This document shows positions 2,333-19,294 of a DNA stretch of 39,808 nt, piece after piece. The translations under genes and the position numbers were made by a program. The DNA is from a bacterium (lineage in GTDB: Bacteria; Patescibacteriota; Saccharimonadia; Saccharimonadales; Saccharimonadaceae). Position 1 is the first letter of the stretch; every line of letters begins with the position of its first letter. The notes beneath the pieces are model-generated. The model did not search any database. It was not told where the DNA came from and saw only the letters and a program-made list of their open reading frames with translations. The stretch is from positions 1 to 39,808 of the forward strand of contig JAUIGB010000009.1 in assembly GCA_030429975.1 (NCBI GenBank), written 5' to 3'.

Positions 2333-2986
2333 ATGGATCTGGGCTCAATAGATAAGCGTACTAGGCACATTTATGATGCACGTCGTATTAGCTCGGAACT
2401 GTATGAGATGACCCCCGATGAAGTCAAGCAGTCGTACGAAGCAAAAAAAGAATTAGTCGCCTCCCATTGGGAGGCGTGCTTAAAATCATACGTCATGCTC
2501 TTTATGATGTTAAACCGCGGCAATCGTTGGCCAGAGGACAAATTTGAAATATGCGTAGCAGAAGAAAAAGCCGATAACATTACATACAGAACTAATGTCA
2601 AAGTAGAGAGAGATCGTAAAGCTGGCGTATATTCGGCGAGACCTTTTATAGATTGTGGCCATGGGATAATAGATTACGCTCCTGAATCCGAGTATTTTGG
2701 TAGCGAATTTACTCATAAATATGGAACTCAAAACGCGAGATCCGCTAAATTCGAAGCCACGTACGACGGAGGCGTAAAGTCAGAGATTACTATGACACAC
2801 ATAGAGGGTAGAAAAGTAAAAGAAATGAATATAGAGAACATGGCAATAATGATGTCCGCGATTGATTTGACGATAGGCCCACACCTTGATAACGTCGAGG
2901 ATACGGTTTCGATGCTCACGAACGCAGTGTTGGACGATAGGCTGAATCCAGAACTTGCAAAACGAGCTCGGTTGCCAGAACACTAG
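2333..2986 (+). CDS. Hypothetical protein (217 aa)
   Basis: Long intact ORF; no family recognised. Confidence 0.7.
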   Translation: MDLGSIDKRTRHIYDARRISSELYEMTPDEVKQSYEAKKELVASHWEACLKSYVMLFMMLNRGNRWPEDKFEICVAEEKADNITYRTNVKVERDRKAGVYSARPFIDCGHGIIDYAPESEYFGSEFTHKYGTQNARSAKFEATYDGGVKSEITMTHIEGRKVKEMNIENMAIMMSAIDLTIGPHLDNVEDTVSMLTNAVLDDRLNPELAKRARLPEH

Positions 2987-2994
2987 TCGCGTGA

Positions 2995-3000
2995 TATATT
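2995..3000 (+). promoter_or_regulatory. -10 box (TATATT) for leader peptide transcript
   Basis: TATATT 7 nt upstream of ATG 3008, so transcript would be leaderless. Confidence 0.5.
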
Positions 3001-3007
3001 AAAGCCA

Positions 3008-3082
3008 ATGAGTCAAGTTGCAGCATCACGAGCATATTGGTTTACCGACAGTAATTCTGGCGGTTTGCTCCGTGTTTTGTAA
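3008..3082 (+). CDS. Putative 24-aa attenuator leader peptide MSQVAASRAYWFTDSNSGGLLRVL
   Basis: ATG...TAA immediately after -10 box; Tyr-Trp-Phe codons precede an antiterminator arm; terminator follows. Confidence 0.7.
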   Translation: MSQVAASRAYWFTDSNSGGLLRVL

Positions 3083-3127
3083 CGAAACCTAGAAAGCATC
3101 GAACAGACCGCCAGGAGGCGGTTTTTT
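3057..3127 (+). promoter_or_regulatory. Transcription attenuator: antiterminator 3057-3070/3101-3114 versus terminator 3107-3127
   Basis: CTGGCGGTTTGCTC pairs with GAACAGACCGCCAG (13/14 incl. one wobble), mutually exclusive with ACCGCC-AGGA-GGCGGTTTTTT. Confidence 0.75.
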
Positions 3128-3151
3128 GATTAAATACAAGGAGATAACAAA

Positions 3152-3391
3152 ATGGAACAACTATCAGAGACTATAGATACGACACAAGAAACGTCAGTAC
3201 CCGACGGAATGATACGAATAGACGCACTATACGCAGCTGCCTTCGTAGGAGCGTCGGTCAGTGCGGAACCTTCCGAAAAACCTAAAGGCCCCAGCAAGAG
3301 CGATCTAGAAGCACTTGCAATGGCGCAGAGGAATATAGGAAAATATACAGGCAAACTAACCGCAAACAGCGCGCCTATATCGGAGCTGTGA
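3152..3391 (+). CDS. Small hypothetical protein (79 aa)
   Basis: ORF preceded by AAGGAG Shine-Dalgarno (tacAAGGAGataacaaaATG), downstream of attenuator. Confidence 0.6.
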   Translation: MEQLSETIDTTQETSVPDGMIRIDALYAAAFVGASVSAEPSEKPKGPSKSDLEALAMAQRNIGKYTGKLTANSAPISEL

Positions 3392-3399
3392 GGATATCA

Positions 3400-4110
3400 A
3401 TGAGCAAAATATTACTACTGGGCTCACATCACGGAGATGAACTACTGGGTGACAAGTTGATTCGCTATATTAAAGCTCATCATCCAGAACTGATAAAGCA
3501 TGTAGAGTTTAAAATCGCGAACCTCAAAGCGCACAGCAAAAACGTTCGGTATATAGAATCCGATGTGAATCAAAGCTACAACGGTAAAAAGGATATTTAC
3601 GAGGAACGTCGTGCCGGTAAAATACTTGAATACATTAAAGAATCTAGCTTTGACCTAGTGCTTGATTTGCATACAACCAGTTGCGATCAACCGCCAAGTC
3701 TCATAATGGCGTCTATTAACCCCGACAACAAGAGATTTATTGATGCATCTACAATACGTCACCTGGTCATTATGGAACCGAAAACGGTGTCAACCGCCCT
3801 TAACGGCGTTTGTCCAAACTCTGTCGCGGTTGAAATCAACAGACATATTGCAGACGTTACGCTAGAGAACTTATGCGGCGACATTCAAAGATACATAGAC
3901 GGCAAAAAAGCATACGTCGACAAGTATATATATGAAGTAGACTTATTAAAAAACGACGAGGTAACTGTCAGCCAGTTCGAGAAACTGCGTAATTTTGAGT
4001 ATTCAGACCCTGGATTTTACCCGATACTTGTCGGTGAGAGCTCTTATCAAAAACAAGGTTATGATTATCTAGGCTTCAAGGCTACAGAACGCAAAAAGTA
4101 TAAGGTATAA
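3400..4110 (+). CDS. Succinylglutamate desuccinylase/aspartoacylase-like zinc carboxypeptidase (M14-like)
   Basis: GSHHGDELLG, DVNQSYNG and LDLHTT motifs of AstE/AspA family; start reassigned from 3388 to internal ATG 3400. Confidence 0.7.
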   Translation: MSKILLLGSHHGDELLGDKLIRYIKAHHPELIKHVEFKIANLKAHSKNVRYIESDVNQSYNGKKDIYEERRAGKILEYIKESSFDLVLDLHTTSCDQPPSLIMASINPDNKRFIDASTIRHLVIMEPKTVSTALNGVCPNSVAVEINRHIADVTLENLCGDIQRYIDGKKAYVDKYIYEVDLLKNDEVTVSQFEKLRNFEYSDPGFYPILVGESSYQKQGYDYLGFKATERKKYKV

Positions 4111-4118: not shown

Positions 4119-5156
4119 ATGAGCAAACCTGTAATACTGACAGGCCTCCGTGCCAATAACGACCTACATATAGGCAACTACTTTGGTGCTATGCTACCTA
4201 TTATCGATACCGCGAAACAGCGCGCTGGCGAATACCAAGTCAACATGTTTATTCCTGATCTGCATAGCTTTACTACCGAGATCGACCATAGCCAACTACA
4301 GGGTCATGTTATGAATAACGCCAGACTGTATGTAGCATCTGGCCTGCCTCTGGATAATCATGATATATTGCTATATCGCCAATCTTACGTGCCGGCACAT
4401 AGCGAGCTGACATGGATACTAGATTGCTTCACGGCCATGGGCGAAATGAGTCGAATGACCCAATTCAAGGACAAATCATCAAAGCTAGGTGACAGAATAG
4501 GCGTGGGGCTATTTAATTACCCAGTACTGATGGCATGCGACATCCTACTATACGGTGCACAATACGTGCCGGTTGGTGACGACCAAACACAACATTTGGA
4601 ATTCACGCGTGATATCGCTGGTCGCATGAATAGCAAGTTTGACGATCTGTTCACAGTACCACATGAAGTTGCTAAACAGCACGAATTCTTTGGCAAAGGA
4701 CAGGGTCTGCGTATTATGGACTTGGCCGATCCTGGCAAAAAAATGTCCAAATCTGCCGACAGCGACAAGGGCGTAATATTTCTGACTGACAATCCGGAAG
4801 TCGCGCACAAAAAGATAATGTCCGCCACTACTGACGATTTAGCGAGCGTAAATTATAACCCGATCGAACAACCGGGTATCAGTAACTTGATACAAATACT
4901 GGCACTATTACGCGGTCATCCAATTGATGACGTCGAGCAAGCATACAAGGGAATGGATAAATACGGTGACTTTAAACGAATAGTTGCAGACGAAATGAAG
5001 CAGTTCTTGGGCGATTTCCAATCCAAACTATCTGGCGTCAGTGATGATGCTATCCACGGTGCATTCAAGCGTTCCGAAGAAGTTGCAAATGAGCAAGCTA
5101 ATCAAACACTACTGAGGGTGCAGAGGGCAGTAGGACTACGACCGAAGGAGTCCTAG
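4119..5156 (+). CDS. trpS: Tryptophanyl-tRNA synthetase
   Basis: TGLRANNDLHIGNYFGAMLP (HIGN), KKMSKSADSDKG (KMSKS). Confidence 0.96.
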   Translation: MSKPVILTGLRANNDLHIGNYFGAMLPIIDTAKQRAGEYQVNMFIPDLHSFTTEIDHSQLQGHVMNNARLYVASGLPLDNHDILLYRQSYVPAHSELTWILDCFTAMGEMSRMTQFKDKSSKLGDRIGVGLFNYPVLMACDILLYGAQYVPVGDDQTQHLEFTRDIAGRMNSKFDDLFTVPHEVAKQHEFFGKGQGLRIMDLADPGKKMSKSADSDKGVIFLTDNPEVAHKKIMSATTDDLASVNYNPIEQPGISNLIQILALLRGHPIDDVEQAYKGMDKYGDFKRIVADEMKQFLGDFQSKLSGVSDDAIHGAFKRSEEVANEQANQTLLRVQRAVGLRPKES

Positions 5157-19219: not shown

Positions 19220-19294
19220 AGGGGCATAGTACAACGGCTAGTATAAAGGTCTCCAAAACCTTAGATCTAGGTTCGATTCCTAGTGCCCCTGCCA
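19220..19294 (+). tRNA. tRNA-Trp (CCA anticodon), 3' CCA encoded
   Basis: AGGGGCA/TGCCCCT acceptor; GGTCTCCAAAACC anticodon arm; GGTTCGATTCC T-arm. Confidence 0.93.

Follow-up and report, generated by a model that had tools for sequence, protein, structure and literature searches.

The window (the whole 39,808-nt stretch of DNA analysed here) comes from a 1.02-Mb genome that is 99% complete, and the relatives of its tryptophanyl-tRNA synthetase (TrpS) are Candidatus Saccharibacteria records. The upstream gene occupies positions 2333–2986. A promoter, a short open reading frame (ORF) and a set of alternative RNA helices precede three genes, the last of which is trpS; the window also carries a tRNA-Trp gene, at 19220. 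The features of the locus, with the roles predicted for them, are as follows.

2972–3000, forward strand: promoter, with a –35 element TTGCCA (2972–2977), a 17-nt spacer and an extended –10 element TG-A-TATATT (2992–3000); 10/12 matches
3008–3082, forward strand: leader ORF of 24 codons, MSQVAASRAYWFTDSNSGGLLRVL, predicted to be leaderless, with transcription predicted to start at or beside its ATG
3038–3040, forward strand: putative regulatory Trp codon UGG, 19 nt upstream of the antiterminator arm
3044–3051, forward strand: region 1, ACCGACAG, forming the 1:2 hairpin with 3057–3064
3057–3078, forward strand: region 2, the antiterminator 5′ arm, lying over Gly-Gly-Leu-Leu-Arg-Val-Leu codons
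3093–3114, forward strand: region 3, the antiterminator 3′ arm, of which 3105–3112 doubles as the terminator 5′ arm (from folding and covariation)
3105–3127, forward strand: intrinsic terminator (3:4), pairing 3105–3112 with 3117–3124 around the loop AGGA (3113–3116), with a U-run to 3127
3152–3391, forward strand: small ORF of 79 aa with the Shine–Dalgarno (SD) sequence AAGGAG, the first gene after the putative attenuator
3400–4110, forward strand: AstE/AspA-type (aspartoacylase-like) hydrolase gene of the attenuator–trpS unit (PF24827, E 1.6e-13)
4119–5156, forward strand: trpS, tryptophanyl-tRNA synthetase, the predicted main target (TIGR00233, 280 bits against a cut-off of 177)

Much of this arrangement had been described in a first-pass annotation, and all the elements it named are present in the sequence, among them the –10 box TATATT (2995–3000), the 7 nt separating it from the ATG at 3008, and the 24-codon ORF. 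The proposed downstream order of a small ORF, an aspartoacylase-like gene and trpS also holds, with family matches (PF24827 and TIGR00233) for the latter two. The small ORF has no Pfam match, and a partly similar small ORF occurs in one relative. In other relatives the first ORF after the leader is often small as well (50–110 aa); a single common family for these ORFs was rejected, as they fall into several unrelated families. Several other genomes likewise have an AspA-like gene separating the leader from trpS, and a contig scan with the AspA-like protein as query returned nothing. We also note that AspA/AstE-like hydrolases (3400–4110 in the window), GNAT-like proteins, M20 deacylases and Asp/Glu racemase-like proteins recur between leader and trpS in the window and its relatives, where they may possibly serve in salvage of modified Trp or peptides. 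The TrpS open frames of G001, G008, G009, G046, G057 and G059 are approximately 390–430 aa long, with an extra stretch near residue 121–125 relative to the window TrpS. Searches of the window's genome for the TrpB-like family and for DAHP synthase family I gave no match, under conditions where control families were detected. Trp synthesis is therefore probably absent from this organism, which would need an external supply.

The promoter at 2972–3000 is among the three best sigma-70-like sites in 8 kb (10/12 matches) and is the only one of the three with a TG in front of the –10 box. Its position relative to the ORF is a recurring property: a TANNNT box lies 6–7 nt upstream of the leader ATG in 42 of 79 leaders, where chance would give approximately 3 per position; only 4 of the 79 have an SD-like motif. 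Transcripts that start at the ATG are thus predicted, and the leader ORF would be leaderless, with ribosomes loading directly on the RNA 5′ end.

Three helices can be formed by the RNA that follows the Trp codon. The first part of region 2, CTGGCGGT (3057–3064), pairs with region 1 in a local 1:2 hairpin of –8.1 kcal/mol, an element lying just after the Trp codon that was absent from the first-pass annotation. The antiterminator joins 3057–3078 to 3093–3114 over 22 positions, 20 of them paired (–30 kcal/mol), and the terminator 3:4 has 8 bp (–12.5 kcal/mol). The complementarity originally noticed, 13/14 positions between 3057–3070 and 3101–3114, is correct (12 Watson–Crick pairs, one U–G and one C–A mismatch), and the antiterminator proposed from it is a real pairing whose extent had been drawn too short. 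The claim that antiterminator and terminator exclude one another is likewise sustained, since they share an arm and both 2:3 and 3:4 pair and covary. Folding of the 120-nt leader gives z = –3.3 relative to shuffled sequences. Because of this value, and because conservation and covariation extend over the whole unit in an alignment of 75 leaders, the leader cannot reasonably be ascribed to chance.

At equilibrium, the antiterminator of the window RNA is more stable than hairpins 1:2 and 3:4 together, and an untranslated leader would consequently be expected to read through. When the nucleotides under a ribosome are masked during folding, the terminator probability is 0.00 with the ribosome at the Trp codon, 0.96 with the ribosome at the stop codon and 0.03 for the free RNA. 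This crude masking model yields a clean switch in 47 of 77 leaders; among those that do not switch cleanly, the terminator is predicted to win despite a stalled ribosome.

The leader is not confined to this genome. In the neighbouring species G001 it is 86% identical over 96 nt and again lies upstream of AspA–trpS; the DNA immediately flanking it cannot be aligned, and alignment returns only in AspA and trpS. A covariance model built on six leaders (R1) was searched against 394 genomes of the family and found the leader in 44 at E ≤ 0.1, the weakest matches being marginal. A second model (R2), searched against 393 genomes of the order at E ≤ 0.01, found it in 103 genomes and 78 of 156 genera. 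Both counts, 44/394 and 103/393, are lower bounds, as the initial scan scores few candidates per genome. Lack of conservation of the leader ORF had been named beforehand as the result that would count against the attenuator, and the 103 order genomes answer that point. Minus-strand matches overlapping plus-strand ones were left out as echoes of the palindromic stems, and weak matches in G144, G306 and G156 (E > 0.005) were taken as noise. The covariance models detected no leader in many of the relatives searched, including the 99%-complete G009 of the same genus, a class-level search returned no genome with a match outside the order, and no exact leader copy was found in viral contigs. Tandem pairs of Trp leaders before one trpS operon were observed at four loci: L177 (G042), L178 (G049), L155 (G051) and L266.

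Independent of any leader model, 80 loci were picked by TrpS similarity alone. All clear matches among them (E < 1e-5) lie upstream of trpS and in the same orientation, and the complete genome CP025011.1 is one of those with a clear leader upstream of trpS. The gene trpS follows nearly all of the clear family leaders, either immediately or with one to a few genes in between, and nearly all of the sampled order loci on contigs of sufficient length, G498 being one exception. Other downstream genes also belong to the metabolism of the amino acid that would be sensed. Two leaders with two Trp codons, NNWWQNG (WW) and TWRWAV (WRW), lie directly before TrpB-like genes (G115, G021). DAHP synthases follow the leader clearly in G061, G566, G524, G423 and G049a, and below the Pfam cut-off in G521 and G540. 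A chorismate mutase is found in G008 and a prephenate dehydratase in G223.

Covariation supports all three helices in the alignments. For the 2:3 helix of 37 leaders, which is 93% paired, 49 double-change cells were counted, compared with 18.9 ± 3.2 after shuffling and 4–7 when the arms were slid. As the alignment had been fitted to 2:3, the count was repeated on a sequence-only alignment, with the same outcome (49 against 19 ± 3). Helices 1:2 and 3:4, to neither of which the alignment was fitted, together gave 39 against 15.4 ± 2.7. In the larger set of 75 leaders, the count for 2:3 is 87, where shuffling gives 29.4 ± 4.2 and sliding no more than 26; for the unfitted 1:2 plus 3:4 it is 49, where shuffling gives 13.2 ± 2.8 and sliding no more than 18. 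Pairing reaches 87% for the 1:2 helix, 89.8% of cells for 2:3 and 94% for 3:4 across the 75 leaders. The shuffle tests are inflated by relatedness; the slid controls preserve relatedness and remain far below the observed counts. Compensatory changes had been proposed as the check on the 3057–3070/3101–3114 pairing, and they are present, with all of the helices covarying.

The ends of the three regions carry a particularly informative base triple, which reads CAG/CTG/CAG in 12 of 37 leaders and CAC/GTG/CAC in 9 of 37. Such a joint swap should be seen only if region 2 pairs with region 1 as well as with region 3, and thus points to two structures competing for region 2. Placed on the TrpS tree, the single outermost pair gives few swaps that are independent on supported branches, too few for a formal test.

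Two features of the leader ORF bear on what is sensed: (i) a short Trp-containing ORF is present in 77 of 79 leaders and (ii) its Trp codon lies 18–19 nt upstream of the antiterminator arm in 60 of the 79. Circularity was avoided by building a third covariance model without the Trp region of the ORF. This blind model found 21 new leaders outside the training set, and in each of the 21 a short ORF starts with ATG and has a Trp codon in frame, 17–26 nt before the arm. One Trp codon is present in 68 leaders and two in 9; the two or more adjacent regulatory codons that are typical of trp-type attenuators, without defining them, are therefore not the pattern here.

Leaders without Trp were read in G223, G015a and G015b, the last from an overlap at a contig end. 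In the otherwise intact leader of G223 (L112, 5175–5272, reverse strand), which precedes a dehydrogenase-like gene, a prephenate dehydratase and trpS, the Trp codon is replaced by TCG (Ser); this could be a mutation, an assembly error or a change of signal. Two copies in G015 (L097, 11–87 and 1248–1348) apparently carry IVVII and FYIF in place of Trp codons and precede two paralogous genes of approximately 350 aa of unknown family, possibly reflecting a switch of the sensed amino acid. A search for Phe leaders ahead of genes for prephenate dehydratase gave a single one, in G061 (L103, G061:C1:370000-375200), a genome that has a Trp leader too. There, MHYIVSNFFAFTNPS, a leader of Phe type with a terminator after it (G061:C1 374804–374881, reverse strand), lies directly upstream of a chorismate mutase/prephenate dehydratase gene and a hisC-like aminotransferase gene, and looks like a pheL-type attenuator found in one genome only.

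Could the signal be aromatic amino acids generally, or Tyr or Phe, rather than Trp? Tyr-Trp-Phe is common in the leaders, some of the operons contain DAHP synthase, chorismate mutase or prephenate dehydratase, and the G223 leader has Tyr and Phe without Trp before a prephenate dehydratase. Against this, Trp is kept where its flanks vary (NWWQ, TWRW, SWQ, NWR, TWH, AWRT), trpS is the constant target and both leaders before trpB-like genes have a second Trp codon, which together leave a general aromatic, Tyr or Phe signal most unlikely.

A second alternative is an arrest peptide that, like TnaC, would stop the ribosome when free Trp or some other ligand is present, with GGLxRVL acting as protein. 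A similar peptide is encoded across the genus (AYWFTxSxSGGLxRVL), the Trp codon is usually single, and a WF..D motif is found in TnaC as well. The distal part of the ORF argues otherwise. Of the 79 leaders, 45 translate the conserved block (C/G)TGGCGGTTTGTTC as GGLFRVF, 25 as LAVCSVRS and 4 as WRFVKCM, with the arm unlocated in the other 5, so that approximately 40% of leaders read the GGLLRVL block in an alternative frame. It is thus the RNA, rather than the C-terminus of the peptide, that is conserved, and the nucleotides encoding GGLxRVL pair and covary with region 3. The stop codon, in whichever frame, lies mostly 18–33 nt past the first nucleotide of the arm, a position at which a ribosome ending translation would mask region 2. 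Sequence-specific arrest, the fallback of the first-pass annotation, finds no support in a peptide whose C-terminus varies, and we consider it highly improbable. An ordinary terminator of the upstream gene 2333–2986, joined by chance to an ORF and a complementary segment, has in its favour that this gene ends only 120 nt before the terminator. It is refuted to the point of being negligible because the leader is conserved and covarying as a unit, its promoter box keeps a constant spacing to the ATG, and its 86% match in G001 stops where the surrounding DNA ceases to align.

The leader is conserved, its three helices covary, the Trp codon is fixed in position and the leader codons match the downstream genes. 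For these reasons we read it, with high confidence, as a ribosome-mediated transcription attenuator that would sense charged tRNA-Trp and control the trpS operon; Trp-responsive attenuation upstream of the trpS cluster, as first suggested, thereby gains support from leader conservation and helix covariation. If UGG occupied the A site, the ribosome would reach to approximately position 3051, just over region 1. When Trp-tRNA is low, the ribosome would stall as the UGG at 3038 enters the A site, covering region 1 (3044–3051); region 2 would then be free to pair with region 3, and the antiterminator would let transcription continue through the small ORF and the AspA-like gene to trpS. When Trp-tRNA is plentiful, the ribosome would proceed to the stop codon at 3080 and cover most of region 2, leaving region 3 to pair with region 4 and transcription to end near 3127.

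By the structural criteria examined, the leader belongs to the ribosome-mediated attenuators: a short ORF bearing a codon for the presumed signal, Trp, precedes the terminator (77/79, and 21/21 with the blind model), and a 1:2 hairpin (87% paired) would lie under the ribosome. It shares with the Escherichia coli trpL, pheL and hisL type a short ORF with a regulatory codon, hairpins 1:2, 2:3 and 3:4 with a U-run, and the predicted control of genes that serve the amino acid sensed. It differs in having usually one Trp codon, fewer than the classical leaders, a predicted leaderless ORF, trpS rather than a biosynthetic operon as predicted target, a very long antiterminator covering the 3′ end of the ORF, and no match to an Rfam sequence family; strict and permissive Rfam scans gave nothing at gathering threshold, and no leader or T-box family at E ≤ 10. 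Untranslated E. coli trp RNA terminates by default, whereas readthrough is predicted at equilibrium for the window leader. T-box leaders of Firmicutes synthetase genes follow a common logic, in that low tRNA charging raises the cognate synthetase, but here the tRNA would be read by a translated codon.

A comparative study of Actinobacteria predicted attenuators upstream of Streptomyces trpS2 and leuS, including trpS2 of S. avermitilis (PMC1262725). These are also classical attenuators before aminoacyl-tRNA synthetase genes, trpS among them, but they belong to another phylum and were predicted in few genomes, and the trp operon attenuators of that study have double or triple UGG (PMC1262725). 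The Sinorhizobium meliloti trpL is leaderless: its RNA starts with the ATG of the leader, and both this RNA and the peptide act in trans (PMC7298713). It has in common with the present leaders Trp codons and an attenuator before a Trp gene, and an ATG start is predicted for the latter; it has consecutive Trp codons and controls trpE(G) (PMC7298713). The combination of usually one Trp codon, a predicted leaderless ORF, trpS as the apparent target and conservation across an order is unusual. Our literature search, with most subscription journals outside its coverage, found no amino-acid-responsive attenuator reported for Saccharibacteria, Patescibacteria or the candidate phyla radiation, and no report of how Saccharibacteria or the candidate phyla radiation adjust to host-derived nutrients.

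We give an even chance to a broader proposal: that this is an ancient, order-wide RNA sensor of Trp supply, an ancestral leaderless single-Trp attenuator kept after Trp synthesis was lost, through which a host-dependent epibiont tunes trpS and salvage-like genes to the Trp of its host. Under that proposal, translation-coupled attenuation would be described here for the first time in Patescibacteria. The leader itself is a specific regulatory element of wide conservation, for which both signal and target can be predicted. Its frame-independent conservation provides a clean case for separating RNA from peptide constraint in leader ORFs, and the element is a natural point of departure for tunable expression in organisms that have no such tool. 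For the biology of these ultrasmall cells, the leader would imply that transcription and translation are tightly coupled on leaderless leaders.
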